Shown here in pieces: positions 28,551 through 47,156 of a stretch of DNA of 64,000 nucleotides. The notes under the pieces were generated by a model. It saw only the letters and a program-made list of their open reading frames with translations, ran no database searches and was not told the DNA's origin. Location: NCBI GenBank assembly GCA_949295465.1, contig CASFKY010000009.1, forward strand, positions 61,012 through 125,011, in the 5' to 3' direction. How positions within the stretch are numbered: the first letter of the stretch is position 1; each line of letters starts with the position of its first letter. The position numbers were made by a program, and so were the translations under genes. Source of the stretch: an uncultured Oscillospiraceae bacterium. GTDB lineage: Bacteria > Bacillota > Clostridia > Oscillospirales > Ruminococcaceae.

Positions 28551-29729
28551 TCAGCGGGAGGCCACCAGTTTTTTCAGAGCCTTTTCCAGATTTTTCACCG
28601 TGAGGGTGTACATGTCAAACTCGTGGCGGATGGCGTCATAGGTCTGGCTGATGCCCCAATAGGAATCCCCGGTGCCCGGGTTGAGCCAGACCACATGGGA
28701 GAAATGCTCCCGGATGGTGAGCAGCCAGTCCATGCCGCTCTTGCGCTTTGCGTACTGGCCGCCCCACAGCTCATAGGGGGCCATCTCCGCGTCTCCCACA
28801 AAGATCACCTTGTAATCCCGGCCCAGTGTGTTCAGCACGCTCTCGGTGGTGACCCACTTGGTGGGGTTGCAGGTGGGCTCGGTGTACAGGTGGCTGTAGA
28901 CGCAGTTGTGGAAATAGTAGATCTTCAGGTCCTTGAAATGGTTGGATTTGCGCACTGCCTGAAACAGCGCCGTGCACAGCCCGGAATAATAGTCCATGCT
29001 GCCGCCCGAATCCATCAGCATCAGCACCTTGACGGTGTTGACGCGGGGCCGCTCATACACCAGGGTGAGAGTGCCGCCGTTGTCACAGGTGGCATCCACC
29101 GTGGCGTCCGGGTTCAGCTCGGTTTTGGGGGCGTCGGTCTTGGCGGAATACTGGCGCAGCCGCCGCAGCGCCACCTGGAACTGGCGGGTGTCCAGCACCG
29201 TGTCCCCGGTGAAATCCCGGAACCGGCGCTCTCCCGCCACCCGGAACGCCCGGTGGTGGATGCTCTGGCCCCCCACCCGGATGCCGGTGGGGCTGTTGCC
29301 CGCATTGCCGAAGGTGGACATGCCCCCGGTGCCCACCCAGTAGCTGCCCCCGTTGTGCTGCTCGTGCTGCTCTTTGAGCCGCTGGGCCAGCATCTCCTCG
29401 ATCTGCTCAGGGGTGAGCAGGCTGTTGAGCTGGGCGATCTCCTCGTCGTAGTTGCCGGGGGTGGAGGCGGGCTTGTTGAGCCATTCCATCAGCTGAGGCG
29501 GGATCTCCTCTGAGGCCTCGGCGATGGTGCGGAAATACCGCACAAAGGCCGAGTCAAACTTGTCGTAATCGGCCTCGCTCTTGATGAGCACCGCCCGGCA
29601 CAGCTCATAAAAGCGAGTGAAGCTGGCCCCCGCCAGCCCCTTGTCCAGCGCCTCACAGAGGGTGAGCCACTCCTGCAGGGACACCGCCAGCCCCTGGCTG
29701 CGCAAATAGTAAAAGAACTCTGTAAACAT
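28551..29729 (-). CDS. VWA domain-containing protein (CoxE-like)
   Basis: A 392-residue cytoplasmic protein. The N-terminal half (about 1-200) is helical, and the C-terminal part is a von Willebrand A domain with the metal-site motif LMDSGGSM (about 232-239). It lies 32 bases after a MoxR ATPase gene, the standard pairing for MoxR-VWA chaperone systems that insert metals or remodel protein complexes. In CO dehydrogenase clusters the homologous CoxD-CoxE pair matures the molybdenum site. A molybdenum hydroxylase operon lies just upstream here, so a similar role is possible but unproven. Confidence 0.85.
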   Translation of the reverse strand: MFTEFFYYLRSQGLAVSLQEWLTLCEALDKGLAGASFTRFYELCRAVLIKSEADYDKFDSAFVRYFRTIAEASEEIPPQLMEWLNKPASTPGNYDEEIAQLNSLLTPEQIEEMLAQRLKEQHEQHNGGSYWVGTGGMSTFGNAGNSPTGIRVGGQSIHHRAFRVAGERRFRDFTGDTVLDTRQFQVALRRLRQYSAKTDAPKTELNPDATVDATCDNGGTLTLVYERPRVNTVKVLMLMDSGGSMDYYSGLCTALFQAVRKSNHFKDLKIYYFHNCVYSHLYTEPTCNPTKWVTTESVLNTLGRDYKVIFVGDAEMAPYELWGGQYAKRKSGMDWLLTIREHFSHVVWLNPGTGDSYWGISQTYDAIRHEFDMYTLTVKNLEKALKKLVASR

Positions 29730-29761: not shown

Positions 29762-30589
29762 TCAGAACCGGCGCCGCGCCTTGGCCTTTTCCAGGTTTTC
29801 CAGGTCCTCATTCTTTTTCAGCAGCACGCCCGCAAAGGGAATGTCCCGCTGGATCTTTTCCATAGGGATGCCGCTGAAGGTGAGGGCCCGGATCCAGTCG
29901 ATGAGCTCGCTGGTGCTGGGCTTTTTTTGCAGGCTGGGCAGGCTGCGCACCCAGTAAAAAGCCGCGATGGCCTGGTCCAGCAGGTGCTGCTCCAGGTTGG
30001 GGTAGTGCACCCCGATGATCTTCCGCATGAGGGGTTCATCCGGGAAAGAAATGTAGTGGAAGATGCACCGGCGCAGGAAAGCGTCCGGCAATTCTTTTTC
30101 CGCATTGGAAGTGATGAGGATCACCGGCCGGTGCTTGGCCTTGACGGTGCGGCCGGTCTGGGGGATGGTGAACTCCATCTGGTCCAGCTCCCACAGCAGG
30201 TCGTTGGGGAACTCCAGATCGGCCTTGTCGATCTCGTCGATGAGCAGCACCGCCCGCTCCTCACTCTCGAAGGCCTCGCCCACCTGGCCCAGGTGGACAT
30301 ACTTTTCGATGTCGTCCACCCCTTCGCCGCCGAACTGGCTGTCGTACAGCCGCTGCACCACATCGTACACATACAGCCCGTCCTGGGCCTTGGTGGTGGA
30401 TTTGATGTTCCAGATATACAGGGGCGCGTTCAGGGACGAGGCAATGGACCGGGCCAGCATGGTCTTGCCGGTGCCGGGCTCGCCCTTGAGCAGCAGGGGC
30501 TTTTGCAGGGTCATTGCGATGTTCACGGCGCTGAGCAGTTCCTCCGAGGCCACATAGTCCTGGCTGCCAGCAAAGGTTTTTGCTTCCAT
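29762..30589 (-). CDS. MoxR family AAA+ ATPase (CoxD-like)
   Basis: A 275-residue AAA+ ATPase. Walker A is GEPGTGKT (about 36-43), Walker B VLLIDEIDKAD (about 113-123), and sensor 1 lies in ITSNAEKELP (about 154-163), followed by the arginine-finger region DAFLRRC. MoxR ATPases act with VWA partners as chaperones for cofactor insertion. An AGAGAGGAAAG ribosome site precedes the ATG. A perfect -10 lies at 30621-30626, and a terminator separates it from crcB. The two genes therefore appear to be their own unit. Confidence 0.9.
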   Translation of the reverse strand: MEAKTFAGSQDYVASEELLSAVNIAMTLQKPLLLKGEPGTGKTMLARSIASSLNAPLYIWNIKSTTKAQDGLYVYDVVQRLYDSQFGGEGVDDIEKYVHLGQVGEAFESEERAVLLIDEIDKADLEFPNDLLWELDQMEFTIPQTGRTVKAKHRPVILITSNAEKELPDAFLRRCIFHYISFPDEPLMRKIIGVHYPNLEQHLLDQAIAAFYWVRSLPSLQKKPSTSELIDWIRALTFSGIPMEKIQRDIPFAGVLLKKNEDLENLEKAKARRRF

Positions 30590-30829: not shown

Positions 30830-31207
30830 TCAGGCGCTGCCCATCCTGCGGGCCAATGCCTGGCCCAGGGCCACTCCCGCCAGGCACCCCGCCACGCTGA
30901 GCAGGATGTACAGCCCTGCCGGGCCGGGCTTGCCCTTTTGCAGCAGGGTCAGGCTCTCCAGCGAAAAGGTGGAAAAGGTGGTGAAGCCGCCGCAGACGCC
31001 GGTCTTCCAGAAAAGCAGCCTTCCCTGGCTCCAGCCCGCCTGACCGGCCAGGCCCACCACCAGCCCGATGAGCAGCGCCCCCAGCAGGTTGGTAAAAAGG
31101 GTCAGCACCGGGAAATTCCCCTTGGCGGGCAGCAGGCTCAGCCCGTAGCGGGCCGAAGCCCCGAGGGCTCCCCCCAGGGCCACAAAGATCAGATTTTCGG
31201 CTCTCAT
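30830..31207 (-). CDS. crcB: Fluoride channel CrcB/Fluc
   Basis: A 125-residue membrane protein with four predicted helices. The family motifs GGALGASARYGLS (about 9-21), TLFTNLLGALLIG (about 33-45) and GGFTTFSTFSLE (about 70-81) are present. CrcB exports fluoride as a dual-topology dimer. A single gene, as here, fits a homodimer. The start at 31207 overlaps the mocA stop by four bases, so it is translationally coupled to the molybdenum-hydroxylase operon; a longer frame to 31291 is only antisense coding noise. No fluoride riboswitch is visible. The 139 bases to the terminator hold nothing recognised. Confidence 0.9.
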   Translation of the reverse strand: MRAENLIFVALGGALGASARYGLSLLPAKGNFPVLTLFTNLLGALLIGLVVGLAGQAGWSQGRLLFWKTGVCGGFTTFSTFSLESLTLLQKGKPGPAGLYILLSVAGCLAGVALGQALARRMGSA

Positions 31208-31794
31208 CGGTTTTGTTCCTCCGTGTTCAGATCTTCTGGCCGGTCCACGTCCCAGAGTTCCCCTGCGCTCTCGGCAGGGATGCGCAGACACCGGCCCCCG
31301 CAGCCCTCCAGCACCTTCCGGCCGCCCTCATCGCCCTCCAGTTCCATCAGCTGCCCCCGCAGAGAGGCCGAAAAGAGGGTGGGGCTGCCGGGGTGGTCCC
31401 CCAGCCAGAGGGTGGCGGCCAGGGCGCCCCGGTCCGCGGCCTCCAGCAGCCGGGCCACCGTCCGCCCCGAGAGGCCGGGCTGGTCCGCCACCGCAAAGAG
31501 GTAATAATCTTCTTCCCGGGCGGGCAGGCTCTCCAGCGCCGCCCGGATGGTGAAGGAAAGGCCTTCCCCGCTGCGGGGGCTCTCCACCGCAAGGCAGCCC
31601 CTGGCCCGGGCCTCAGCCAGAATTTCGGGCCAGCGGGAGACCACCACCGCCCGGCAGTCCTCGCGGCCGACCGTGGCCTCCTCCAGGGCTGAGAGCCCCC
31701 AGACAAAGAGGGGCCGCCCCTGCCAGAGGGCCAGCAGCTTGTTGGAACCAAAGCGGCGGGCAGAGCCCGCCGCCAGATAGATCAGGTAATTCAT
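31204..31794 (-). CDS. mocA: Molybdenum cofactor cytidylyltransferase, MocA family
   Basis: A 196-residue nucleotidyltransferase with the N-terminal signature LAAGSARRFGSNKLL (about 7-21). It also carries a central AVADQPGL, where Asp binds metal, and a terminal DVDRPEDL. MocA links CTP to molybdopterin to give the cytosine dinucleotide form used by xanthine-dehydrogenase-type enzymes. It overlaps the end of xdhA by four bases, which supports the assignment over related MobA or glycan enzymes. Its stop overlaps the crcB start. Confidence 0.86.
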   Translation of the reverse strand: MNYLIYLAAGSARRFGSNKLLALWQGRPLFVWGLSALEEATVGREDCRAVVVSRWPEILAEARARGCLAVESPRSGEGLSFTIRAALESLPAREEDYYLFAVADQPGLSGRTVARLLEAADRGALAATLWLGDHPGSPTLFSASLRGQLMELEGDEGGRKVLEGCGGRCLRIPAESAGELWDVDRPEDLNTEEQNR

Positions 31795-34085
31795 TTTTCT
31801 TCCATGCCCATCAGGATCTTCTCCGGGGTGATGGGCAGCCGCCGGTGCCACACGCCGGTGGCCCGGTAGATGGCGTGGGCCAGGGCCGGGGCCGGGGTGT
31901 TGATGACGATCTCCCCGATGGATTTGGCCCCAAAGGGGCCGGTCTTTTCATAGCTGGACTCAAACTCAACCCGCAGCCTGCCCATATCCAGCCGGGTGGG
32001 GATCTTGTACTGCATGAAGGAGTCCTCCAGGATTTTCCCCTGGGGGGTATAGGTTACGCCCTCATAGAGGGCCATGCCGATGCCCTGCACCAGGCCGCCC
32101 TCGGTCTGCACCCGGGCCAGGTTGGGATTGATGGGGGTGCCGCAGTCCACCACGGCCACATAGTTCAGCGGGCGCACCGAGCCGGTCTCCCTGTCCAGCT
32201 CAATCTCCACCATACCCACCATGAAGGGGGGCGGCGAAATGGGCGAGGAGTGGGAGCAGGTGGCCTGCAAGGCCAGCCCGTTGCCGCACATGGACCGATC
32301 GGCGATCTGGGCCAGGCTCACCTCGCCCTTGCCGTCCAGCCGGCGCACGGCCCGGCCGGCGAACTCCACTTGCTCAGGCTGGCAGCCCAGCATCCCGGCG
32401 GCCAGGGCACAGATCTTTTCTTTCAGCTCCAGGCAGGCCTTTTCCACCGCCTTGCCGGTGACATAGGTGGTGGAGGAGGCGTAGGAGCCGGAATCATAGG
32501 GGGAGGCGTCGGTGTCCGCGCCGAACACCGCCACATCTTCCAAACGGCAGTCCATGCACTCGGCCACCATCTGGGCCAGGATGGTATCACAGCCGGTACC
32601 CATGTCGGCGGCGCCGATGGTCAGGTTGTAGAAGCCGTCGTCGCTGAGCTTGACGGTGGCAGAACCCACGTCCACCCCGGAAATGCCGGAGCCCTGCATG
32701 GCCATGGCCACGCCGGCCGCCCGCACCTTGCCGTCGCCCATCTCCCGCACCGGGAATTTTTTCTCCCAGTCAAACAACTGGGCGCACCGATCCATACACC
32801 GGTCCAGAGCGCAGGCCCCGGCCACCTCATTGTAATAGGCGGGCATGGTCTGGCCCTCCCGCACCATATTTTTTTTGCGCAGTTCCACCGGGTCCATCTC
32901 CAGCCGGGCCGCCAGCTCGTTCACCGCCGACTCCACCGCAAAGATGCCCTGGGTGGCCCCGTAGCCCCGGTATGCGCCGGCGGCCTGCACGTTGGTGTAC
33001 ACCACGTCATAACTGAATCGATAAGCCTCGAGCCCGCCGGTGTACAGGGGAATGGACTTGTGGCCGGAGAGCCCCACCGTGGTGGGCCCATGCTCCCCGT
33101 AGGCGCCGGTGTTGGAGAGGGTGTACACATCCAGCGCCCGGATGGAGCCGTCCCGCATGGCGCCCAGCCGCACCCGCACCTCCATCTCATGGCGGGGGGA
33201 GCCGGCAGTCTGGCACTCCTGCCGGGTATAGATCATCTTGGCGGGGCGGCCGGTCTTCCAGGTGACCAAGGCCGGGTACACCTCGGCCACCACCGTCTGC
33301 TTGGCCCCGAAGCCGCCGCCGATGCGGGGCTTTTCCACATGGATGCGGGAGCGGGGGATGTCCAGGGCGTTGGCCAGGATCCGCCGCAGATGAAAAACGA
33401 TCTGGGTGGAGCTGACCACATGGAGCCGCCCGTAGGGGTCCATCTCGGTATAGGTGCGGAAGGTCTCCATCATGGCCTGCTGGCAGGCCTGGGTGCGGTA
33501 GGTGTGTTCCACCACCTCGTCGCAGCCGGCCAGCACCGCCTCCACATCCCCGTCGCCGCTGGTCTCACTGGCACAGAGATTGCGCTTGTTGTCGGACCCC
33601 ACCGGGCAGAGGCTGCGCCAGTTCTCCTCCGGGTGGACCAGGATGGGGTTGTCCTTGGCGGTGTGCATGTCCAACACCGGCTCCAGCACCTGATAGCGCA
33701 CCTTCACCAGCTTGATGGCCTTGTTCACCGCCGCCTCGCTCTCTCCTGCCAGGATGGCCACCGCGTCCCCCACAAAGCGCACCCGCTTGTCCAGGATGAG
33801 ACGGTCATAGGGGGAGGGCTCGGGCGCGGTCTGCCCCGCCATGGTAAACCGCTTCTGGGGCACATCCCGGTAGGTGTACACCGCCACCATTCCCGGCACC
33901 TTCAGGGCCACCGAGGCGTCGATCTCCTCAATGAGGGCGTGGGCGTAGGGGCTGCGCAGCACCTTCACCACCAGACAGTCCCGGGGGGTCACGTCGTCCA
34001 GATAGGCGGGCTTGCCCAGCAACAGGGCCATGGCGTCCTTTTTGCGCAGAGGCTGGCCCACGGTCTTGAAATTCTTATTCTCCAC
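31791..34085 (-). CDS. xdhA: Xanthine-dehydrogenase family, molybdenum-binding subunit
   Basis: A 764-residue catalytic subunit of a molybdenum hydroxylase. The two aldehyde oxidase/xanthine dehydrogenase domains are clear: the small domain to about 130, then the large cofactor domain with RIGGGFGAKQ (about 240-249), GAYRGYGATQGIFA (about 342-355) and the terminal GAKSIGEIV (about 710), whose Glu is the catalytic base. The GTG start at 34085 lies 11 bases inside xdhC and follows GGGAGGGG; no in-frame TGA suggests selenocysteine. Substrates may be xanthine, hypoxanthine or another N-heterocycle; the nearby NCS2 permease favours a purine. It works with the FAD and 2Fe-2S subunits encoded upstream. 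Confidence 0.93.
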   Translation of the reverse strand: MENKNFKTVGQPLRKKDAMALLLGKPAYLDDVTPRDCLVVKVLRSPYAHALIEEIDASVALKVPGMVAVYTYRDVPQKRFTMAGQTAPEPSPYDRLILDKRVRFVGDAVAILAGESEAAVNKAIKLVKVRYQVLEPVLDMHTAKDNPILVHPEENWRSLCPVGSDNKRNLCASETSGDGDVEAVLAGCDEVVEHTYRTQACQQAMMETFRTYTEMDPYGRLHVVSSTQIVFHLRRILANALDIPRSRIHVEKPRIGGGFGAKQTVVAEVYPALVTWKTGRPAKMIYTRQECQTAGSPRHEMEVRVRLGAMRDGSIRALDVYTLSNTGAYGEHGPTTVGLSGHKSIPLYTGGLEAYRFSYDVVYTNVQAAGAYRGYGATQGIFAVESAVNELAARLEMDPVELRKKNMVREGQTMPAYYNEVAGACALDRCMDRCAQLFDWEKKFPVREMGDGKVRAAGVAMAMQGSGISGVDVGSATVKLSDDGFYNLTIGAADMGTGCDTILAQMVAECMDCRLEDVAVFGADTDASPYDSGSYASSTTYVTGKAVEKACLELKEKICALAAGMLGCQPEQVEFAGRAVRRLDGKGEVSLAQIADRSMCGNGLALQATCSHSSPISPPPFMVGMVEIELDRETGSVRPLNYVAVVDCGTPINPNLARVQTEGGLVQGIGMALYEGVTYTPQGKILEDSFMQYKIPTRLDMGRLRVEFESSYEKTGPFGAKSIGEIVINTPAPALAHAIYRATGVWHRRLPITPEKILMGMEEK

Positions 34086-34551
34086 AGTCGGCCCCTCCCC
34101 TCTTTTTCCAGTCCAGATAGGCCCGGATGCCCCGCAGCTGCCCCTCGTAGCCGGAGCAGCGGCAGAGATTGCCTGCCAGGAAGGCCCGGATCTCATCGTC
34201 GGTGGGGTCCGGGTTTTGGCGCAGAAGGGCGATGGTGTTCATCACAAAGCCCGGGTTGCAAAAACCGCACTGCTCAGCCCCCTGGTCGGCGATGAAGCCC
34301 ACAAACTCCTCCGCCTCGCTCTGCAGCCCCTCCAAGGTTTGCACCTGGTGGCCCGCCGCCCGGGCCGCCAGCACCCCGCAGGAGAGCACCGGCTTTTCGT
34401 CCAGAAAAACCGTGCACAGCCCGCAGTTGGAGGTCTCACAGCCCCGCTTGACACTGAGGCAGCCCTGCTGGCGCAAAAAGTCCAGCAGCAGGGTGTCGGG
34501 GGCGATCTGCGCCCGGATGTTTTTTCCGTTCAATGTGAGGGTGATCTCCAT
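34075..34551 (-). CDS. xdhC: Xanthine-dehydrogenase family, 2Fe-2S subunit
   Basis: A 158-residue electron-transfer subunit with two [2Fe-2S] clusters. The N-terminal ferredoxin-like domain has C-x4-C-x2-C in GCETSNCGLC (about 38-47) with a further Cys at about 59. The C-terminal four-helix domain has CGFC (about 96-99) and CRC (about 131-133). It passes electrons from the molybdenum centre to the FAD subunit. It lies two bases after xdhB and overlaps xdhA. Confidence 0.95.
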   Translation of the reverse strand: MEITLTLNGKNIRAQIAPDTLLLDFLRQQGCLSVKRGCETSNCGLCTVFLDEKPVLSCGVLAARAAGHQVQTLEGLQSEAEEFVGFIADQGAEQCGFCNPGFVMNTIALLRQNPDPTDDEIRAFLAGNLCRCSGYEGQLRGIRAYLDWKKRGGADCGE

Positions 34552-34553: not shown

Positions 34554-35345
34554 TTACACCTCCTTGGCCAGTTCCAGCAGAGCCCGCCGGGCCAATACTT
34601 CACAGATTTTGCGGCGATATTCCGCCCCGGCCCGCAGGTCGCTGCCGAAGGGAACCTGCCCCGCCAGCCACTGCCCGAAACGCCGGGCGCTGTCCGGGTT
34701 GATGCCGCCGGCGAGAATTTTCTCTTCGTCCCAAAAGAGTTTTGCCTTCCCCGGGCGGGCCCCCACGGCGCAGGCCAGCCCCCCAGGCCGGCACACCGCG
34801 GCAAAGGTGAGCACCGGGAAATCGGTGGCGGTGTTGCGCTGGGAGAGGTACACGGCCCCCTGCGCCTCCTTGGGCAGGATCACCCGCACCAGGATGTCCC
34901 GCTCATAGGGCAGAGCCGCGAACTCTTCCAGGCTCACTACGCCCCGGTGGTACAGCTCCACTCGGGCCCCCAGGGCCAGCAGCAGGGTGAGCGGGTCGGA
35001 AAAGCCGAACCGCCCGTACAAACTGCCCCCGATGGTGGCCAGATTGCGGAACTGTACCCCCACGATGGAGCCCAGGCACCGGGCCATGGCTCCCCGAGTG
35101 TAAGCGGCCAGGCCCGGGTGGGTCTCCAGCGCCCGCAGGCTGGTCATGGCGCCGATGCGGAATTCTTCCTCGGTCTCCTCAATGCCCTCCAGCCCCAGCT
35201 CGCACAGGTCGATGGCCGTGCCCACGGTGCGGTCCTGCATTTTCAGCCAGAGCATGCCCCCCAGCACCACGCTGCTCTTTTTCTGGCAGAGGGTGTAGGC
35301 TTCCTCCAGGCTCTGGGCCCTGACATATTGTCCGATGCTCAGCAC
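34554..35345 (-). CDS. xdhB: Xanthine-dehydrogenase family, FAD-binding subunit
   Basis: A 263-residue FAD subunit of the CO-dehydrogenase/xanthine-dehydrogenase class. The segments VVLGGMLWLK (about 26-35) and FRNLATIGGSLYGRFGFSDP (about 99-118) form the flavin sites, and the last 100 residues are the CODH FAD-C domain. The GTG start at 35345 follows GGGAGGA with normal spacing; the longer frame is not supported. It is the first gene of xdhB-xdhC-xdhA-mocA-crcB. The usual first glycine-rich loop (typically GGTDL) is altered to GGMLWL, so flavin binding may be modified. Confidence 0.88.
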   Translation of the reverse strand: MLSIGQYVRAQSLEEAYTLCQKKSSVVLGGMLWLKMQDRTVGTAIDLCELGLEGIEETEEEFRIGAMTSLRALETHPGLAAYTRGAMARCLGSIVGVQFRNLATIGGSLYGRFGFSDPLTLLLALGARVELYHRGVVSLEEFAALPYERDILVRVILPKEAQGAVYLSQRNTATDFPVLTFAAVCRPGGLACAVGARPGKAKLFWDEEKILAGGINPDSARRFGQWLAGQVPFGSDLRAGAEYRRKICEVLARRALLELAKEV

Positions 35346-35442
35346 GTTGGTTCCTCCCTTTCCCCGGACTTCCCGGCGGTGGTATGGCTTGCTTTGCCGC
35401 CCGGCCGAGGCCGCCGGCAAAAGAACGACTATTTCTATCTGT

Positions 35443-35547: not shown

Positions 35548-36948
35548 TTATTCGGCTTTTTTCTCTTTGGGCAGCAGCAGGTTCAGCAGGATGGCCACAA
35601 AGGCAGCGGGCACGATGCCGGAGCCGCCGAAGATGAGCTGCACCGCCTGGGGCAGGCCGGAGAGCACCGCGCTGTTGGCGCCCAGGCCATAGCCCAGGCC
35701 CAGAGCCACCGACACGATGGTCATGCTGCGGGTGTTCAGGGGCTCGCTGGTGATGAGCTGGATGCCGCTCATCACAATGGAGGAGAACATGATGACCGCC
35801 GCGCCTCCCAGCACGCTCTGGGGCATGATGGAGATGAGGGCCGCCAGCTTGGGGAAGAGCCCGCACAGCACCAGGAACACCGCACCGCAGGCCAGGGCAA
35901 AGCGGTTGACGATCTTGGTCATGGTCACCAGGCCCACATTCTGGCTGAAAGAAGTGTTGGGCAGCACCCCAAAGAGGGCGGCGAAGCTGGAGCCCAGCCC
36001 GTCGCACATGATGCCGCCGGACAGCTCGGTATCGGTTGCCTCCCGGCCCATGCCGCCCTCGGTGACGCCGGAGATGTCGCCCACCGTCTCCACGGCGGTG
36101 ACGATGAACATGATGCCCACCGGCAGGATAGCCCGCAGATCAAACACCGGCTTGACCGGCATCAGCTGCGGGATGGAAAACCAGGACGCCTGGGCCACTT
36201 TGTCCCAGTTGAGCACCCAGGCCTTGGTGTACTCCACCCCGTCGGCGGTGACGCCGGTGGTGGACCAGACAAAGGGCAGCACCATGCACAGGATATACCC
36301 GAACAGGATGCCGAACAGGATGCAGGAGGAACTGGCCAGCCCCTTGGCCCCGTGCTTGAGGGCCAGGATCACCACCATCACCAGCAAGCCGATGAGGAGG
36401 TTTTCGGCCGAGCCGTAGTCGGCCGCGCCGCTACCGCCCCCAAAGGAGGCCACGCCCACGCTGATGAGGGAGAGGCCGATGGACATGACCACCGTGCCGG
36501 TGACCACCGCCGGGAAAAACCGGCGCAGAGGTTTGAGGAAGACCCCCAGCACCGTCTCGAACAGGCCGCCCACGATGGAAGCCCCCATCATGGCGCCGTA
36601 AGCCAGGATGCCGCCGCCCATGCTCTGGGCCACGCCCTGGAACACCCCGATAAAGCCGGAGCTGGTGCCCATAATGATGGGCACCTGGCCGCCCACCGGC
36701 CCGATGGCAAAGAGCTGCACCAGGGTGACCAGCCCCGCCACCAGCATGGCGTTCTGCAAAAGGGCCACCTGCACCGCCGCCAGCTCCTCAGCGCCGCTGC
36801 CCACCGAGCAGGCCCCGGTGATGATGAGGATAGGGGTGAGATTGCCCACAAACATGGCCAGCACATGCTGGAGCCCCAGGGGGATGGCCTGCTTTAAGGG
36901 CAGCCGGCCCTTGAAATCATAGGGTGTCACAACGCGTTTTTCTTCCAT
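35548..36948 (-). CDS. NCS2 family nucleobase permease (xanthine/uracil type)
   Basis: A 466-residue permease with about 14 hydrophobic segments. The NCS2 features LGLQHVLAMFVGNLTP (about 23-38), VETVGDISGVTEG (about 290-302) and the motif NTSFSQNVGLV (about 340-350) fit the xanthine/uric-acid branch (QNxG). It imports purine bases with protons or sodium. The start at 36948 has GGAAGAGAAG upstream; the ORF extension is unsupported. It lies directly upstream of the xdh operon on the same strand, so a purine substrate for the hydroxylase is plausible. The exact base cannot be read from sequence. Confidence 0.92.
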   Translation of the reverse strand: MEEKRVVTPYDFKGRLPLKQAIPLGLQHVLAMFVGNLTPILIITGACSVGSGAEELAAVQVALLQNAMLVAGLVTLVQLFAIGPVGGQVPIIMGTSSGFIGVFQGVAQSMGGGILAYGAMMGASIVGGLFETVLGVFLKPLRRFFPAVVTGTVVMSIGLSLISVGVASFGGGSGAADYGSAENLLIGLLVMVVILALKHGAKGLASSSCILFGILFGYILCMVLPFVWSTTGVTADGVEYTKAWVLNWDKVAQASWFSIPQLMPVKPVFDLRAILPVGIMFIVTAVETVGDISGVTEGGMGREATDTELSGGIMCDGLGSSFAALFGVLPNTSFSQNVGLVTMTKIVNRFALACGAVFLVLCGLFPKLAALISIMPQSVLGGAAVIMFSSIVMSGIQLITSEPLNTRSMTIVSVALGLGYGLGANSAVLSGLPQAVQLIFGGSGIVPAAFVAILLNLLLPKEKKAE

Positions 36949-37014
36949 ACTTCTCTTCCGTCCTTGCCTTGGTTTTGACTGTATTCTCACGAATTTCTCG
37001 AATTGCCGCCCCTT

Positions 37015-37077: not shown

Positions 37078-37848
37078 TTAGGCAAGAAGCGAGTAAAACA
37101 ACCCGGTTTCTTTGTCCTTTTTTACCAAGATTTGCGGCCAGATCCCGCCCAAAAAGTCCTGCAATTGTTGAGGGGTGGCCTCGGCCGGGCAGATGCCCCC
37201 GCTGAGGATGCCTTTCTCCATACAAAAAAGCCGGTCGCCCCAGCGCAGGGCCAGGGCCGGGTCGTGTACCACGGCCAGGGCTGCCTTGTTCCGGCTTTGG
37301 GTGAGAAGGCGCAGATGGCGAAACAAAAGGTGGGCGTTTTCCGGGTCCAGGGCGCTGCTGGGCTCATCCAGCAAGAGCAGGGGCGCATCCTGGGCCAGGG
37401 CCCGGGCAAGCTGCACCAGCTGGCGCTGCCCCTCGCTGAGAAGGGCGCAGTCCCGCCCCCACAGCTCCTCGATGCCCAGGCTCCGGGCCGCCTGACGGGC
37501 CAGCTCTTCCTGCCGGGGGTCGTCAGAGCAAAAGGGGCTGCCGTGAACATACCGCCCCATTTGGATCACTTCTCCCGCCCGCAGTCCCCGGGGCAGCGGG
37601 CTGCGCTGGGGCAGCAGAGCCAGATGCCGGGCCAGGCGCCGGGCGGGCAGGCCCAGACACTCCTGGCCGTTCACCTGCACGCTGCCCCCGTACACCCGGG
37701 CCGAACCGCAGATGCCCCGCAAGAGAGTGGTCTTGCCGCTGCCGTTCCTCCCCAGGATCACCCCGATCTGGCCCGCCGCCAGGGAGAGGCTGGCCCCGCG
37801 CACCACCGGGGAGGCATAGCCCACGGTGAGGTTCTGCACTCTAAGCAT
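37078..37848 (-). CDS. ABC transporter ATP-binding protein, FecE/MolC class
   Basis: A 256-residue ATPase of the iron-siderophore/B12/molybdate class. Walker A is GRNGSGKT (about 33-40), the signature LSEGQRQ (about 138-144), Walker B LLLLDEP (about 157-163), and the H-loop VHD. It overlaps the permease stop by eight bases. It is the last gene of a binding protein-permease-ATPase operon. Regulation and context (ModE-like fusion upstream, xdh downstream) point to molybdate or tungstate; sequence alone would equally allow siderophore or cobalamin uptake. Confidence 0.9.
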   Translation of the reverse strand: MLRVQNLTVGYASPVVRGASLSLAAGQIGVILGRNGSGKTTLLRGICGSARVYGGSVQVNGQECLGLPARRLARHLALLPQRSPLPRGLRAGEVIQMGRYVHGSPFCSDDPRQEELARQAARSLGIEELWGRDCALLSEGQRQLVQLARALAQDAPLLLLDEPSSALDPENAHLLFRHLRLLTQSRNKAALAVVHDPALALRWGDRLFCMEKGILSGGICPAEATPQQLQDFLGGIWPQILVKKDKETGLFYSLLA

Positions 37849-38851
37849 CCCCGTCCCCTCCTTCCCGCCTGCCGCAGAGCAGGGCGATGAGCACCGGCAC
37901 CGCAAACAGCACCGTGAAGATGCTCAGGGGCAGCTCCGCCCCCGGCGAGAGGCTGCGGGCCAGCAGATCGGCCGCCAGCAGCAGGTCCGCCCCGGTGAGG
38001 GCCGACAGGATCAGGTAGGGCCCGGCCCGCCGCCCCAACAGCCGGAAGGCAATGTGGGGGGCGATGAGCCCCACAAAGGCGATGACCCCAGTGACCGACA
38101 CCAGCGCCGACACCATCAGGGTGGTGAGCCCCAGCAGCACCGCCCGCCAGCGGCGGGGCTCCAGCCCCAGGCTGCGGGCGGTCTCATCCCCCAAAAACAG
38201 GATGGCCGCCTGCCGCCGGAACAGAAGCAAAAGCGACAGGGGCAGGACCACCACCGGGGCCAGCATCCCCAGCTTGGCGGCGGTCACCGTCGCCAGGCTG
38301 CCCATGGTCCAGAACTCGATGGCGGCCAGTTCCCGCTCCGGGTCGGCCAGCACCTTCAGGGCCATAAGGGCCGCGTCTGCCGCCGAGGAGACGATCACCC
38401 CCGCCAGCACATAGGTGACGGTGTACTCCATGCGGGCAGCCTTCACCAGGGCCAGCACCAGCACCAGGCTGGCCAGCCCCGCCCCAAAAGCCCCCGCCAT
38501 GAGGGCCAGGGTACTGCCGGAGCCCAGCACAATGGCGCAGGCTGCCCCCAGCGAGGCCCCGCTGGCCACGCCGGTGAGGTCGGGAGAGGCCAGCGGATTG
38601 CGGAAAACCGTCTGGTACACGCCCCCGGCCAGCCCCAGCCCCAGCCCTGCCAGCAGCCCCACCGCAGTGCGGGGCACCCGCAGGGTCCAGAACACCCGGG
38701 CGGGCAGTTGGCCTGCCAGCTGCCCCTGCAGGATCCGGCCGATCTGGTCAAGAGAAAGAGGGAAGCTGCCCACGCAGAGAGACACCGCGCACAGAACCAG
38801 CAGCAGCCCGCAGGCCGCCCCCGTCATCCACGCGCTCCTCTCCCGTTTCAT
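37841..38851 (-). CDS. ABC transporter permease, FecCD/MolB class
   Basis: A 336-residue permease with about ten helices. Typical FecCD segments are RVPRTAVGLLAGLGLGLAGG (about 59-78), QTVFRNPLASPDLTGVASGA (about 80-99) and VGLIAPHIAFRLLGRRAGP near residue 265. A single permease gene implies a homodimeric channel, as in BtuC, FhuB halves and the molybdate/tungstate importer MolB of Haemophilus. It starts 34 bases after the binding-protein stop. Confidence 0.92.
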   Translation of the reverse strand: MKRERSAWMTGAACGLLLVLCAVSLCVGSFPLSLDQIGRILQGQLAGQLPARVFWTLRVPRTAVGLLAGLGLGLAGGVYQTVFRNPLASPDLTGVASGASLGAACAIVLGSGSTLALMAGAFGAGLASLVLVLALVKAARMEYTVTYVLAGVIVSSAADAALMALKVLADPERELAAIEFWTMGSLATVTAAKLGMLAPVVVLPLSLLLLFRRQAAILFLGDETARSLGLEPRRWRAVLLGLTTLMVSALVSVTGVIAFVGLIAPHIAFRLLGRRAGPYLILSALTGADLLLAADLLARSLSPGAELPLSIFTVLFAVPVLIALLCGRREGGDGDA

Positions 38852-38885: not shown

Positions 38886-39974
38886 TCAGGCGGTCAGCAG
38901 CTGGGCGTCCAGCTCAAAACCGTAGAACTCCCGGTAAAAGTCCTGGGCATCCGCCACAAATTCCTCCTGGCTGTAGCTGTCGGGGTGCAGGACGCTGGTG
39001 AGCCAGAGCGCCCCCAGAATGCCGGAGGGCACCGGGGAATCCCATTCCTCCACCTGGCCGGGCATCTGATACACCCGGCCCTCTTCCACCGCGGGCACCC
39101 CCGCCAGCTGGGCGTCGTTCAATACATCCTCCACTGTGTAGGAGGCGGCGGAGGGCAGGATGATCACCTCCGGGGCCATGGCCAGCAGGGACTCATAGGA
39201 CACCTCGGTCCAGTAATCCCCCTCCAGGTCGGCAGCCGCGTTCCGGCCGCCGGCCAGAGCGATCAGGCTGCCCTGGTACATGGCGTCGGTGGCCGTCTCC
39301 AGGTAGGAGGAGTTGCCGCCCATGTACACCAGGGGGCTTTCCTGCCCTTCGGTGAGCTGGGCCATCCGATCCTCCTGCTCATGGTAGTAGTCGATCAGGC
39401 TCTGGGCCCGGTCCTCCACACCGCAGGCCTGGCCGATGAGGGTGAGCATCTCCTCCAGACGGTCCTGGTCCTCCGGGTCCACCACCAATACCGGGATGCC
39501 CAGCTGGGTAAGGGCGTCCACATAGTCCATCAGCTTGACGGGCATCAGCACCAGGTCCGGCTCCAGGGCCGCGGCAGCCTCCACGTCAAACTCCTTCAGG
39601 GTGCCCAGCTGGGGCTTTTCCAGCAGGGAGGGGTCGGCCATCTGGTAGACAGGCCGGGTCTCGGCCTTCTTTTCCAGCCCCACCACCCGGTCGGACACGC
39701 CCAGAGCCAGGGTGGCATAGGTGGTGATGTAATAGCAGCTCACCAGGCTTTGGGCAGGTGCCTCCAGCTCTACATCCCGGCCCGCCTGATCGGTGAGCCG
39801 GATGGGCCCCTGGGCCTCGCTGGAAGCCGCGCTGGAAACCGCCGCGCTGGAGGCAGGCTGGCTGGTCGCCTGGGACGAGCTGGCCGCAGACTGGCCGCAG
39901 CCCGCCAGGGACACCGCCATGCTCAGGGCCAGCACCAGGGCCCCGGCCCGCTGCAAAAACCTGGTGTTTTTCAT
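38886..39974 (-). CDS. ABC transporter substrate-binding lipoprotein, PF01497-like; possible molybdate/tungstate receptor
   Basis: A 362-residue lipoprotein: signal peptide with lipobox LAGC (Cys26), a Ser/Ala-rich linker to about residue 55, then a two-lobed periplasmic-binding domain beginning IRLTDQAGRDVELEAPAQ. This fold serves siderophores, cobalamin, heme and, in the MolA group, molybdate/tungstate. The promoter 80-110 bases upstream carries a ModE-like inverted repeat. The three genes form one operon. Substrate assignment to molybdate or tungstate is inference from this repeat and the neighbours. Confidence 0.88.
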   Translation of the reverse strand: MKNTRFLQRAGALVLALSMAVSLAGCGQSAASSSQATSQPASSAAVSSAASSEAQGPIRLTDQAGRDVELEAPAQSLVSCYYITTYATLALGVSDRVVGLEKKAETRPVYQMADPSLLEKPQLGTLKEFDVEAAAALEPDLVLMPVKLMDYVDALTQLGIPVLVVDPEDQDRLEEMLTLIGQACGVEDRAQSLIDYYHEQEDRMAQLTEGQESPLVYMGGNSSYLETATDAMYQGSLIALAGGRNAAADLEGDYWTEVSYESLLAMAPEVIILPSAASYTVEDVLNDAQLAGVPAVEEGRVYQMPGQVEEWDSPVPSGILGALWLTSVLHPDSYSQEEFVADAQDFYREFYGFELDAQLLTA

Positions 39975-40050
39975 GATATGTTCTCCTGCTTTCTTTAAAA
40001 GGTATTCTCGTTACAGGGCCGGGCAAAAGCTTTTTTCGCTTGCCGGCCCG

Positions 40051-40074
40051 CGTTATTCTAACATGAGAATATCG
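40051..40074. promoter_or_regulatory. ModE-like operator overlapping the importer promoter
   Basis: CGTTATTCT-N6-AGAATATCG is an inverted repeat with one mismatch. It covers the -10 and part of the spacer of the importer promoter. Half-sites opening CGNTAT separated by six bases resemble the layout of ModE operators (CGnTATAT-type). Binding would block polymerase. The match is by eye, and the last half-site bases differ from the enteric consensus. Confidence 0.45.
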
Positions 40075-40083
40075 CTTTGTAAA
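40055..40083 (-). promoter_or_regulatory. Sigma-A promoter of the FecBCD-type importer
   Basis: On the minus strand TTTACA (40078-40083) and TAGAAT (40055-40060) are exactly 17 bases apart, about 80 bases before the lipoprotein start. Confidence 0.7.
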
Positions 40084-40107
40084 GCAGTTTCGCTTCTTTG
40101 GGCCATT

Positions 40108-40959
40108 TTAGGGGGTGCGGGGCCCGAAATCCCCGAAATTCTCCTCAAAGGCCTGCCGGGCCGCCTGCTCCACCGCCTCCAGCATCCGCCGGTATCGCCC
40201 GGCCAGCTCCCGCCCCTCCGGGGTTAGGGCCGAGCCGCCGCCCCCTGCCCCGCCGGGGCGGCTTTCCAGCACCGCGAAGCCCCACTGGGCCTCCACACGC
40301 TGCAGCAGTTTCCATGCCTTGGAATAGGCCATCCCCATCTCGGCGGCGGCCCGGTGGAGCGAGCCGGTGCGCTCCACCCCTTCCAGCAGCCCCAGCGGGC
40401 CGGGGCCAAAGCTCTTGTCCGCCCCCTGGTACAGCCGCAGCGCCAGCCCCCAGTGGAGGGACGGCAGTTCCGGCTCCAGGGCCTCGCGGGCCTCTTGGGG
40501 GCTGATCTGGTCCAGGTCCAGCAAAAGGGCTCCCTCCAGCCTTTGCCATTCTTCCAGGTAAGGCAGCGGCTCTTTTTTGAGCACGGCCACCACGATCTTT
40601 TCGCTGTGGAGCACCCGGTCGATCTCCCTTAAAAAGGCAGGGCAACCCTGCTCAAACCGGCCGATCTCGTCCAGCAGCACCAGAGGCTCCGGCCCTTCCA
40701 GGGCTCTTTTGAGGCAGGCGACACCCAGCCCCTCAAAGCCGTCGGGGGCGGGGCGGATGGCCCCCTCCTCCCAGCGGGAGATGGGGGCGGCCTGGCCGCC
40801 GGGGCAGGCGTGCAGGGCAAAGAGCGGACCCGCCGGGCACCGCCCGGCCAAAAGGGTGCGGTAACCGGCCCAGGGCCGGCCCAGCCGCCCCAGTACCCAG
40901 CGGGCCAGGGTGGATTTGCCGGCTCCCGGCCGGCCTGTGATGAGGATCTTGGTGTGCAT
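40108..40959 (-). CDS. THEP1-type NTPase fused to a ModE-like winged-helix domain
   Basis: A 283-residue fusion. Residues about 1-165 match nucleoside-triphosphatases of the THEP1 family: P-loop TGRPGAGKST (about 8-17), a Walker B region LLDEIGRFEQGCPAF (about 94-108) and the SEKIVVAVLKKE strand. Residues about 180-265 match the LysR-like DNA-binding domain of ModE: GVERTGSLHRAAAEMGMAYS, then KAWKLLQRVEAQWGFAVLE and a GGAGGGGSALTPEG wing. No molybdate-binding MOP/TOBE domain follows, so the NTPase may act as the sensor. It lies directly upstream of the importer operon, whose promoter has a ModE-like dyad. Roles are inferred from domains and position. Confidence 0.82.
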   Translation of the reverse strand: MHTKILITGRPGAGKSTLARWVLGRLGRPWAGYRTLLAGRCPAGPLFALHACPGGQAAPISRWEEGAIRPAPDGFEGLGVACLKRALEGPEPLVLLDEIGRFEQGCPAFLREIDRVLHSEKIVVAVLKKEPLPYLEEWQRLEGALLLDLDQISPQEAREALEPELPSLHWGLALRLYQGADKSFGPGPLGLLEGVERTGSLHRAAAEMGMAYSKAWKLLQRVEAQWGFAVLESRPGGAGGGGSALTPEGRELAGRYRRMLEAVEQAARQAFEENFGDFGPRTP

Positions 40960-40991
40960 CTTCCGCTCTCCCCTCCCGATTTTATAGTTTT

Positions 40992-40997
40992 ATTATA
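40992..40997 (-). promoter_or_regulatory. Likely -10 for the THEP1-ModE fusion gene
   Basis: A perfect TATAAT on the minus strand about 33 bases before the start; the -35 is weak. Confidence 0.35.
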
Positions 40998-41076
40998 GCA
41001 TCAGGGTCATCGCCGGGCCAGACCCGCAAAATGCCCCGCCCTTTGGGGCTACTTAGAGGAAAGCAATTTTTTCAAA

Positions 41077-41463
41077 ATGGCACCTGCAACGGTAGAATTG
41101 TTTCCAAACTTTTGGTATGATCCAGGTATGGAGCAAACCATAAACTGGATTTTGGCAGGGAGGATGGGCATTGTGATGAAATGGCTAAGCATCTTTGCAG
41201 CAATCGCAGTTCTTATGGTTCTTAAAAAATTTTTTCCACAGACACTGAGGCGTTTGCAGCTGCCAATGAATATTGTTGTCAGCGTCCTGAGCCTATTTCT
41301 GGTCGTATGTACTGTTATCGGCTCCTGTCAGGTTGTGAACAGTGATATGGACATAACAGGTAAATTGTTGTTTGTGCTGTTTGCAATCGCCTATGTTTCT
41401 GTCTTTGTGTGGTCGAATTATCGTTTTTGGAAGGAATGGTTCAGAAAAGACAAATCTGATTAA
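41077..41463 (+). CDS. Uncharacterised small membrane protein, AT-rich
   Basis: I do not recognise this protein of up to 128 residues. It has three hydrophobic segments (about 31-50, 62-82 and 94-114) and a basic C-terminal tail, so it is probably an integral membrane protein. Base use is visibly richer in A and T than in every neighbour, with many A/T third positions, which suggests recent acquisition. The start is uncertain: the ATG at 41077 has AGAGGA too far upstream (16 bases); ATGs at 41128 and 41176 are alternatives. It points away from the ModE-fusion gene and is alone. No terminator is evident. Confidence 0.6.
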   Translation: MAPATVELFPNFWYDPGMEQTINWILAGRMGIVMKWLSIFAAIAVLMVLKKFFPQTLRRLQLPMNIVVSVLSLFLVVCTVIGSCQVVNSDMDITGKLLFVLFAIAYVSVFVWSNYRFWKEWFRKDKSD

Positions 41464-43939: not shown

Positions 43940-44659
43940 ATGGACGCAGAAAAAGCGCGGGAGCTGCTGGAAGCTCTCAAACAGTACGACACCCCCAGTG
44001 TCACCAACGTGGTGGCCACCTATCCCCAGGACAAGGAGCTCTGCCTGGGGCTGTATCACCCCTGGGAGGGCAAGTGGTACACCGATGACACCCTGAAGTG
44101 CATGTACCCGGAGCTGGGGCGCACGGTGGGCTATGCGGTCACCGTCACCTACGGCATGCCCGACCCGGCCTTTGACCGGCTGAGCCTGCTGGACGTGTAC
44201 AAGGCCATCCAGGCCTCCCCCAAGCCGGTGGTGGTCTGCCTCAAACAGAATCTGCCCGAGCCCTACAAGAGCAAGAACGGGCTGTGCGGCGGCAACATGA
44301 TGACAGCCTTCAAGTCCCTGGGCTGTGTGGCGGTGATCTCGGACGGCCCCAGCCGGGACCTGGACGAGGTGCGCCCCATGGGGATGCAGTACATGCTGCC
44401 CGGGGTATGTGCCGGCCATGGGCCCTTCTCCATCCAGGCGGTGAACGAGCCGGTGGAGATCTGCGGCATGGAGGTGTGCGCCGGCGACATCATCCACATG
44501 GATGAGAACGGGGCCGTGAAGTTCCCCGCCCGGTATCTGGAGCAGGTGAACCAGCTGTGCCAGAAGCTCAGCGCCTATGAGGAGCGGAAGATGAAGATGC
44601 TGGCCTCCACCAGTGACCCGGAAGAGCTGGCCAAAATCATCTCGGACGTATACAAGTAA
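43940..44659 (+). CDS. RraA-like family protein (probable aldolase/oxaloacetate decarboxylase)
   Basis: A 239-residue protein of the RraA/HMG aldolase family. The family core GGNMMTAFKSLGCVAVISDG (about 114-133) is followed by PSRDLDEV, where Arg-Asp binds substrate and metal, and a GAGDIIHMDENGAVKFP-like segment (CAGDIIHMDENGAV, about 179-192). Characterised members cleave 4-hydroxy-4-methyl-2-oxoglutarate or decarboxylate oxaloacetate; others are RNase E inhibitors, unlikely in a Clostridium. It is monocistronic, with its own promoter and a strong terminator. The true substrate is open. Confidence 0.87.
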   Translation: MDAEKARELLEALKQYDTPSVTNVVATYPQDKELCLGLYHPWEGKWYTDDTLKCMYPELGRTVGYAVTVTYGMPDPAFDRLSLLDVYKAIQASPKPVVVCLKQNLPEPYKSKNGLCGGNMMTAFKSLGCVAVISDGPSRDLDEVRPMGMQYMLPGVCAGHGPFSIQAVNEPVEICGMEVCAGDIIHMDENGAVKFPARYLEQVNQLCQKLSAYEERKMKMLASTSDPEELAKIISDVYK

Positions 44660-44745: not shown

Positions 44746-44774
44746 TTGTCAAACCCCTGCCGCTGTGGTAAAAT
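44746..44774 (+). promoter_or_regulatory. Sigma-A promoter of the CitA-like kinase operon
   Basis: TTGTCA (44746-44751) and TAAAAT (44769-44774) are 17 bases apart, about 32 bases before the start codon. Confidence 0.65.
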
Positions 44775-44805
44775 GTCGGCAAAATCAGCGGGAGGTGCGC
44801 ATCGG

Positions 44806-46407
44806 ATGCTGAAGCGGTTCAAAGGTCTGCCCCTGGAAAAGCAGCTGTTTTTCAGTTTTGTGGGGGTTTGCTCCATTGTGCTGGTCCTGACGCTGGGCAT
44901 CATGCTGTATGTGGACATCTCCCGGCAGCTGAGCCAGATCGATCGGACCATCCGCAACAGCGCGGCCTACATCGCCCAGCTGGACACGGTGGAGGAAATG
45001 CTGGAGCAGGGATACCCGGACCCCCAGGTATCCCAGCAGCTGGACAGCCTGAGCGAAAACATGGAAGACCTGGATGTGATCGGCATCTACAACACCGGCG
45101 GGCTGCGCTTTTATTACACCGACCGCAAGCAAAGCGGAGAGACCTTTGTGGCCGGAGAGGAGGAGCCCATCCTGGCGGGCAGCGAGCCCTATATCACCAC
45201 CGGCTACGGCACCCACGGCACCCAGCGGCGGGCCTTCCACGCGGTACGGGATCAGCAGGGGGTCATCATCGGCTTTGTGACCACCGCCATCTTTTCCTCG
45301 GACATCTGGGCCCAGAGCCGCCGGATCCTGGGCTACGGCCTGGTGGTACTGGGCGTGGTGCTCTTGCTGGGGGTGGGGCTTTCCCGGGGGATCGTCTCCC
45401 TTCTGCGGGGATCGTTGAAGGGGCACCACCCGATGGAACTGCTGCACCTGTATTTGCAGCAGGGAGATGTGCTGAACGCCATTGAGGACGGGCTGGTGGC
45501 CACCGACCTGGAGGGCAGGGTGCTGTTTTCCAACCAGGCGGCCAACCGGCTGCTGGGGGTATCGGGCCCTGCGCTGCAAGGTCGGTGCCTGCAACAGGTT
45601 TTCCCCCAAAGCGCCTGTTTGCAGGTGGCCCGCACCGGGCAGCCCAACCACAACCGGTCCTGCGTGATGGGGCAGGGCCAGGTGCTGGCCAGCGAGGTGC
45701 CCATCCGGGGCGAAACCGGGCTGGACGGGGTGCTGAACATCTTCCACGACAAGACCGAGATGATGAAGCTCTCCGATCAGCTCTCGGGGGCGCGGAACAT
45801 GCTGGACACCCTGCGCTTTTTCAACCACGAATTCATGAACCGGCTCCATGTGATCCTGGGATACCTGCAAACCGGCGATATTGAAAAGGCCACCGCCCTC
45901 ATCGTCAACAGCGGGCTGGTGTCCAGCCAGGCCATCCGGGAGACCGCCGACTGCATCCGGGCATCCCAGCTCTGCGCGCTGGTCATCGGCAAGATGATGC
46001 ACGCCGCCGAGCAGGGCATCCGCCTCACCGTCACGCCGGACAGCTGCTGCCGGCCCGAAGACCTTTTGCTGAGCGAACAGGAATACACCACCATCGTGGG
46101 CAATCTTTTGGAAAACGCGGTGGAAGAGCTCTCCCGCGCCGAGGGAGAAGTGCGGGAGATCCAGCTGGGGCTTTACTGCCGCGCGGACTGCAACATCATC
46201 GTCTGCGAGGACACCGGGCGTGGGATAGACCCGGCGGTGCGGGACCACATTTTTGAAAAGGGAGTTTCCACCAAAGGGGAGGGCCGCGGCCTGGGGCTGG
46301 TTCTGGTCCACCAGATTGTACAAAAATACGGCGGAAATATCGACATTGTGACCGAGGCCGGGGCCGGGACCTGCTTTACCCTGACCTTTACCAGACAGGA
46401 GGAATGA
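44806..46407 (+). CDS. CitA/DcuS-type sensor histidine kinase
   Basis: A 533-residue kinase: membrane helix (about 13-37), extracellular PAS-like sensor (about 38-175), second helix (about 186-210), cytoplasmic PAS (about 225-330), then a short phosphoacceptor domain with His in FFNHEFMNRLHVILGYL (about 350). The ATPase domain follows, with NLLENAVEEL, EDTGRGID and KGEGRGLGLVLV. This layout is typical of citrate, C4-dicarboxylate or malate sensors. The start at 44806 has GGGAGG upstream. The response regulator follows after three bases. The GltS and TAXI genes downstream suggest that the ligand is glutamate or a dicarboxylate. Confidence 0.9.
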   Translation: MLKRFKGLPLEKQLFFSFVGVCSIVLVLTLGIMLYVDISRQLSQIDRTIRNSAAYIAQLDTVEEMLEQGYPDPQVSQQLDSLSENMEDLDVIGIYNTGGLRFYYTDRKQSGETFVAGEEEPILAGSEPYITTGYGTHGTQRRAFHAVRDQQGVIIGFVTTAIFSSDIWAQSRRILGYGLVVLGVVLLLGVGLSRGIVSLLRGSLKGHHPMELLHLYLQQGDVLNAIEDGLVATDLEGRVLFSNQAANRLLGVSGPALQGRCLQQVFPQSACLQVARTGQPNHNRSCVMGQGQVLASEVPIRGETGLDGVLNIFHDKTEMMKLSDQLSGARNMLDTLRFFNHEFMNRLHVILGYLQTGDIEKATALIVNSGLVSSQAIRETADCIRASQLCALVIGKMMHAAEQGIRLTVTPDSCCRPEDLLLSEQEYTTIVGNLLENAVEELSRAEGEVREIQLGLYCRADCNIIVCEDTGRGIDPAVRDHIFEKGVSTKGEGRGLGLVLVHQIVQKYGGNIDIVTEAGAGTCFTLTFTRQEE

Positions 46408-46410
46408 GCT

Positions 46411-47127: not shown

Positions 47128-47156
47128 TCAGCACACCTTTCTTTTTGCCCCGCCTC

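Follow-up and report, generated by a model that had tools for sequence, protein, structure and literature searches.

A THEP1-class NTPase joined to a ModE-type DNA-binding domain and the predicted control of a FecBCD-class importer in Fournierella

Can a ModE-type protein that has no molybdate-binding part of its own take its signal from an NTPase in the same polypeptide? The question is raised by a gene in the window (the whole stretch of DNA that was analysed, 64,000 nucleotides from an uncultured Oscillospiraceae bacterium), which lies beside importer genes and genes for a xanthine-dehydrogenase-type (XDH) enzyme (Table 1). The reading that we favour, at a probability of roughly 0.55, is that its product is a ModE-type repressor with a THEP1-class NTPase in the place of the MOP domains, and that this NTPase gives the input. 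The support for this reading, all at the level of sequence, comes from the domains, an intact P-loop, the gene order, and an operator that sits at the importer promoter, is conserved and covaries with the recognition helix. Most likely the ModE domain would repress the importer operon from the dyad; that the NTPase would feed in a nucleotide- or cofactor-dependent signal is also judged most likely, in this case from domain logic.

Table 1. Predicted features of the fusion locus, in window coordinates
Feature	Position	Strand	Basis and remarks
NTPase_1-ModE_N fusion (P0001)	40108..40959	minus	283 aa; AlphaFold2 mean pLDDT 92.3, pTM 0.74
THEP1-type P-loop NTPase domain	40510..40950	minus	residues 4-150; Walker A GRPGAGKS, Walker B VLLDEIG
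ModE DNA-binding domain	40141..40401	minus	residues 187-273; helix AYSKAW, GGxGGGG wing
24-nt ModE-type operator (predicted)	40051..40074	none	CGTTATTCTAACATGAGAATATCG; conservation, helix covariation
Importer operon promoter (predicted)	40055..40083	minus	TTTACA-17-TAGAAT, TG ahead of -10; conserved in F. massiliensis
SBP, Peripla_BP_2 (MolA/FecB class)	38886..39974	minus	Pfam; lipoprotein signal by eye
FecCD-family permease	37841..38851	minus	Pfam 2.3e-77
ABC ATPase	37078..37905	minus	Pfam 3.1e-27
Xanthine permease (NCS2)	35548..36990	minus	TIGR03173 6.9e-106 (below cut-off); TIGR00801 over cut-off
Xanthine-dehydrogenase-type FAD subunit	34554..35420	minus	FAD_binding_5 2.7e-23
Xanthine-dehydrogenase-type 2Fe-2S subunit	34075..34551	minus	Fer2_2 7.6e-24
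Molybdopterin-binding subunit	31791..34196	minus	homology from about residue 45; ORF start probably upstream of true start
MocA-like nucleotidyltransferase	31204..31851	minus	NTP_transf_3 2.8e-30; TIGR03310 8.5e-24, below cut-off
CoxD/MoxR-like AAA ATPase	29762..30589	minus	profile match; name by analogy
CoxE-like VWA protein	28551..29729	minus	PF05762 8e-6, 25.9 bits, just under cut-off 26.4

Domains of the fusion protein and the order of its neighbours

The first-pass annotation had described one gene that joins a THEP1-type P-loop NTPase to a ModE-like winged helix and lacks the molybdate-binding MOP/TOBE part of classical ModE, and the profile searches that it proposed for the two halves bear this description out. 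Pfam NTPase_1 (PF03266) matches residues 4-150 with an E-value of 2.9e-16 and 60.2 bits, above its cut-off of 23.9. The C-terminal region, whose failure to match ModE profiles had been named as a ground for dropping the idea, matches NCBIfam ModE_repress (TIGR00637) over residues 187-273 with an E-value of 2.9e-17 at 62.5 bits, which is under the curated cut-off of 98.5, and Pfam HTH_1 over residues 192-250 (4.6e-8); with PRK13695, a narrower NCBIfam NTPase equivalog, the protein stays under the curated cut-off. Both shortfalls count against our main explanation. By sequence the closest solved structure is Aquifex THEP1 (1ye8, 9.5e-9) for the N-terminal half, and the short ModE 2ijl (9e-12) and E. 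coli ModE 1b9m (6e-7) for the C-terminal half. A Foldseek search with the AlphaFold2 model, which was built from a 28-row alignment, returned 1ye8 (1.3e-8), 1b9m (2.8e-6) and the human cancer-related NTPase 2i3b (6.3e-5), as well as 2ijl with a target TM of 0.82-0.86. Both Walker A and the DEIG-type Walker B are intact on inspection of the motifs. The Pfam scan gave zero TOBE or MOP matches in the fusion protein, and PF03459 had no match in either Fournierella genome (the source genome is 84% complete) in a search that was positive in 12 of 14 control genomes. TOBE_2 (PF08402) is present in a separate ABC ATPase at 27357-28430 of the window. The ORF starts used here were called by script as the first possible start.

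The fusion and its locus share with ModE (E. coli 1B9M and 1O7L, single-domain 2IJL) the winged-helix domain, a 24-nt dyad with CGnTAT ends and its position at an importer promoter. Unlike E. coli ModE, the fusion has no MOP/TOBE part and carries a THEP1-type NTPase at its N terminus, and the importer beside it is of the FecBCD class whereas the E. coli target is ModABC. With the THEP1/NTPase_1 proteins of Aquifex (1YE8) and human (2I3B) it shares the P-loop fold, Walker A and a DEIG Walker B; it differs from them in that its NTPase is joined to a DNA-binding domain and encoded in a molybdenum-hydroxylase locus. We know of no role assigned to bacterial members of the THEP1 family, and in 2009 the human member was described as having no known function in vivo (PMC2700126, excerpt).

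As the first-pass annotation stated, a FecBCD-class importer lies directly downstream, in the order fusion, SBP, FecCD permease, ABC ATPase, all on the minus strand, and the gene order from the fusion to CoxD is identical in Fournierella massiliensis An912 (L054). In alignment with 4-hydroxybenzoyl-CoA reductase (1rm6) the Mo subunit keeps GGGFGA and GAKSIGE, which we take to be cofactor-site motifs. A CrcB-family ORF (PF02537) lies between mocA and coxD at 30830-31291 (minus strand). Elsewhere in the window, 44746-48588 (plus strand) holds a sensor kinase (SPOB_a/HATPase), an unmatched 257-aa ORF and a sodium/glutamate symporter, and an RraA-like protein at 43940-44659 adjoins this group.

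The source genome encodes a second NTPase-ModE fusion, on contig C33 (L003, 2456-3334, plus strand), which is 48% identical to the window copy. Its Walker B region is altered to VDEALPP, and a search for a ModE box at its locus found none. This paralog stands between an AGCS-like symporter (assigned by eye) and a second xanthine permease, the permease coming after it.

A predicted operator and its match to the recognition helix

The inverted repeat that the first-pass annotation had placed over the -10 of the importer promoter was recovered mechanically, as the dyad GCGTTATTCT-N6-AGAATATCGC at 40050-40075 with 90% complementarity; in the importer sense the 24-nt operator reads CGATATTCTCATGTTAGAATAACG. 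The promoter in Table 1 is the only one of sigma-70 type found in 39950-41080, a region in which 50 shuffles gave a mean of 0.1, and its -10 lies inside the dyad, the right arm holding five of the six bases, which is the arrangement expected for repression. The geometry of the dyad is that of the E. coli ModE consensus operator, ATCGNTATATA-N6-TATATANCGAT (PMC545781, excerpt); the same excerpt has another motif predicted for the single-domain ModEs of Desulfovibrio, a point against our main explanation. We scored boxes by their CGnTAT ends and their complementarity, a score that on the E. coli mod locus yields a single box of at least 9.5, situated 20 bases before modA. None of 100 shuffles of the region (by a simple segment swap) reached the score of the window box. 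The perfect pattern CGNTATTCT-N6-AGAATANCG occurs once in the source genome (84% complete), with three more places at two to three mismatches, and its backward-read control pattern occurs at two places.

Conservation points the same way. In the two Fournierella species both arms of the dyad are identical, two of the six spacer bases differ, and no other change is seen between the -35 and a point a few bases beyond the dyad; the remaining intergenic region has drifted. More broadly, a box of at least 9.75 precedes 13 of 18 SBP starts (the window and L054 included) as compared to 9 of the 117 remaining annotated gene starts of the same loci. Six of these nine are divergent XDH FAD starts, so that in 6 of the 18 loci the box region is common to the SBP gene and the FAD gene; two more are the FecCD and ATPase genes of L091, and the last is the ModE gene of L048. 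The worry raised in the first-pass annotation that the dyad might not be conserved upstream of orthologous importers is thus not borne out. When the 17 SBP upstream regions other than that of L054 were scored, 12 had a box unmatched by any of 100 shuffles, L047 had only a degenerate box (by eye; its best score was equalled in 19 of 100 shuffles), and in L038, L044, L075 and L091 no box was found in the SBP upstream region. The box of L091, from Sphaerochaeta, lies 12 nt before FecCD instead. These four boxless SBP genes among 18, the degenerate L047, and the C33 paralog with its changed Walker B and no box all count against our main explanation. A chance dyad was discarded in view of the shuffles together with the conservation across Fournierella species and SBP genes, and autoregulation through the same box was rejected, since no second box of at least 10.5 occurs in the window (the runner-up scores 10.0 at 2124). 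ModE-type control of the SBP-FecCD-ATPase importer, although predicted, is well supported by sequence.

We then compared box type with recognition helix in 43 loci with both a ModE domain and a box of at least 10.5 within 6 kb and outside annotated genes, taking the best box per locus; counts were made after ModE domains at least 95% identical had been dropped, and L118, a repeat of L085, was counted once. Half-sites of the CGnTATTC/CGnTATCC type are found in 14 of 17 loci whose helix reads AYSKAW and in 3 of 25 others (Fisher 1.1e-5, a value that ignores the tree), and they occupy both arms in 9 of 17 as compared to none of 25 (5.5e-5). The contrast persists at an 80% identity cut (12 of 15 versus 3 of 24) and when only boxes of at least 11 are used (10 of 10 versus 2 of 21). 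Part of the boxes in this comparison are likely to be chance occurrences: a scan of 1.27 Mb gave 46 of at least 10.5, and 0.27 Mb of sequence shuffled with its single-base composition kept gave 4. It is the AYSKAW group, and not tryptophan by itself, that tracks the TATTC box type; W versus L in the recognition helix was rejected as the sole determinant, in that the boxes of the four loci with SYSQAW are TATAC or TATAT in spite of the W (by eye). The ModE domain of the fusion and its dyad, judged by helix and half-sites, are of the same type, which agrees with the prediction of ModE control.

The NTPase as signal input or as maturation factor

In the mechanism that we favour, the winged helices would pair as a dimer on the 24-nt operator, which lies across the -10 and the spacer of the importer promoter, and the bound repressor would keep the SBP-FecCD-ATPase operon from being transcribed; the genes that follow it, for the xanthine permease and the xanthine dehydrogenase, might be repressed as well, should they be co-transcribed. 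The THEP1-class P-loop NTPase, which would stand where classical ModE has its molybdate-sensing MOP domains, could provide the input through its own nucleotide-bound state or through the state of a Moco intermediate that it handles together with MocA, and this state would decide if the repressor stays on its DNA. Such behavior would follow the trigger-enzyme logic of BirA and NadR, in which a DNA-binding domain is joined to a nucleotide-using enzyme of the regulated pathway; the fusion differs from both in its pathway and in its HTH family, and its catalysis is putative. The MocA-ModE and ModE-MocA fusions of relatives likewise join ModE_N to a nucleotide-handling Moco domain, which is a nucleotidyltransferase where the window fusion has a P-loop NTPase. 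Fusions of ModE_N with MocA, found in either order in 11 of 79 annotated sources, lend support to this mechanism, as do the 9 of 197 family genomes in which ModE and NTPase matches are unfused neighbours about 25 bp apart or less.

The fusion itself is narrowly distributed. It is present in both Fournierella genomes, and outside this genus none was found among 197 genomes of the family (37 with any match) or 391 of the class (38 with any match; the set overlaps that of the family). Three of the 79 annotated sources have it, namely the window, its paralog and F. massiliensis, and F. massiliensis is the only case among the 58 loci of the named collection. The first-pass annotation had proposed a survey of how often the fusion neighbours FecBCD importers and molybdenum enzymes, and in the genomes searched the order of importer and XDH genes beside the fusion is kept in F. 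massiliensis; the C33 copy lies by a xanthine permease. Among the open-licence PMC matches listed, we found no paper on such an NTPase-ModE fusion or such an importer.

How far does the NTPase replace a sensor, as the first-pass annotation supposed? The supposition is only partly supported. That an NTPase is present and MOP absent holds good. However, in 56 of the 79 sources ModE_N stands alone in an ORF of at most 160 aa, which is too short for MOP, and in relatives the NTPase is separate, or fused to MocA (8 of 79). Lack of a sensor is thus a trait that other ModEs have in common with the fusion, and a short ModE may work without input from an NTPase. This weakens the argument from need, in which ModE requires a sensor and the NTPase takes its place. 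Longer ModE_N ORFs with an unmatched remainder occur in 10 of the 79 sources; L059, L060, L061, L140, L141 and L143 have ModE_N inside ORFs of 360-458 aa (with predicted starts) whose remainder is unmatched. The ModE_N-MocA fusions, in both orders, come from Bacillota and Actinomycetota (L038, L040-L044, L070, L073, L089, L098 and L104), and no TOBE match was found in the three of this type that were scanned (L038, L040 and L042).

A possible but less probable account is that the NTPase is a Moco-maturation factor, a MobB-like partner of MocA, which merely shares a polypeptide with ModE_N; the fusion would then have no signalling role, and regulation would run through ModE_N plus another or a separate sensor. 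This would fit the eight sources in which the NTPase is fused to MocA and ModE_N stands separately beside it, the existence of an NCBIfam model for a MobA-MobB fusion (PRK14489, matched weakly by the MocA half of L049), and the description of DNA-binding-domain-only ModEs in Desulfovibrio whose sensing is called unclear (PMC545781, excerpt). However, the NTPase-ModE order is not a simple read-through of the gene order ModE followed by NTPase-MocA. Moreover, in a tree of 74 ModE domains, which has few columns and leaves 19 of its 71 inner branches open, the three fusions group together (100/99) and fall outside the clade (97/85) of the ModEs from importer clusters of the family. The ModE part of the fusion is thus not an orthologue of the neighbouring cluster ModE, and simple read-through from the cluster ModE gene is disfavoured. 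The fusion is, in addition, kept in both Fournierella species compared, which hints at selection for the linkage.

Beyond the fusion, 11 of the 30 best-scoring NTPase_1 loci of the phylum have ModE, FecCD plus SBP, XDH or MocA genes, and none of 10 control windows of 14 kb, placed at a distance of 30 kb, has such genes, the loci themselves being 3.7-14.5 kb long. This links a branch of the NTPase_1 family to molybdenum loci. Lone ABC ATPases, which were not counted, are present in 2 of the 10 controls and in 4 of the other 19 NTPase_1 loci. In L179 and L182 a 396-aa ORF with NTPase_1 and an otherwise unmatched remainder lies between ModE_N and an XdhFeS-XdhMo ORF.

Importer substrate and the supply of cofactor

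The solved structures closest to the SBP are 4hn9, which is annotated as an iron-complex protein, and 4ovk; both are ahead of the molybdate binder MolA (3psa), which comes third in the profile ranking and fourth in the fold ranking (the fold comparison used a model with a pLDDT of 85.4). Among structures of known ligand MolA is the closest, ahead of BtuF and the heme binders. MolBC-A of Haemophilus influenzae, an importer of the same FecCD class, takes up molybdate with low affinity, works alongside ModBC-A in the same cell, and has a regulation that is called poorly understood (PMC4031551, excerpt). The Fournierella genomes, by contrast, have no modA over the cut-off (sub-threshold matches of 26.2 and 25.5 bits versus 62.5), and the substrate here is predicted from SBP similarity only. 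Of the view that this is a molybdate importer, the FecBCD class is supported, MolA is the closest among structures of known ligand only, and the substrate is less sure, given that the genus gave no match to MoaC or MoeA.

Unexpectedly, neither MoaC (PF01967) nor MoeA (PF03453) had a match in the two Fournierella genomes (84% and 99% complete), each search being positive in 11 of 14 controls, and the sole MoCF_biosynth match in these genomes is CinA; they nevertheless retain XDH, MocA, CoxD, CoxE and the importer. Plain molybdate import alone would thus not supply the cofactor of the XDH-type enzyme, and a reading in which cofactor is salvaged may be considered. In that reading, which we think rather unlikely, the protein would be a trigger enzyme of Moco salvage: the FecBCD-class importer would take up a molybdopterin-type precursor, the P-loop domain would act on it like a kinase, MocA would add the nucleotide and ModE would report sufficiency. 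The parallel is NadR of NAD salvage, in which a P-loop kinase and a nucleotidyltransferase are combined with an HTH. The chief support for salvage is the missing MoaC and MoeA (two genes, in the genus Fournierella only), and its chief weakness is the kinship of the SBP to MolA, a molybdate binder and no cofactor binder; we also know of no bacterial Moco importer. The Mo subunit motifs kept in the window and the NTPase-MocA and ModE_N-MocA fusions would suit it as well. Among ModE loci of at least 7 kb, Moa, Moe or ModAB matches of at least 50 bits are nearby in none of 16 with FecCD plus SBP and in 15 of 51 without (p = 0.014), a contrast that is weak when split (Moa or Moe alone 0 versus 11, p = 0.054; ModAB alone 0 versus 12, p = 0.056). 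Absence nearby is, moreover, not absence in the genome: genome G114 carries a moa-mod locus (L039) in addition to its FecCD-ModE locus (L038).

Several hundred organisms have been reported with a partial molybdenum trait, especially with orphan molybdoproteins, most of which belong to the families of DMSO reductase and xanthine oxidase; left there without an explanation, these are suggested to reflect unrecognised synthesis components or Mo-independent forms, with pseudogenes and incomplete genomes also allowed for (PMC6147048, excerpt). That bacteria which keep XDH without Moco synthesis import a molybdopterin-type precursor through this FecBCD-class system, that the NTPase and MocA rebuild the cofactor from it, and that the fusion senses this state and represses the importer, is a conjecture that we hold to be somewhat more doubtful still. 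If salvage were true, it would provide a function for a branch of the THEP1 family and an explanation of some orphan molybdoproteins. Through a natural NTPase-ModE fusion the locus ties these two subjects to the sensing by short ModEs, and the fusion and the XDH locus may help the cell to obtain molybdenum cofactor by an unrecognised route.

It is very improbable that the importer simply takes up iron siderophores, heme or B12 and is linked to ModE by accident, for although the FecCD and Peripla_BP_2 families mostly serve such uptake and 4hn9 bears its iron-complex annotation, a plain iron or B12 importer is disfavoured by the conserved ModE-type operator at orthologous importers, by the box region held in common with the divergent XDH FAD gene, and by the rank of MolA above BtuF and the heme binders in both sequence profile and fold.
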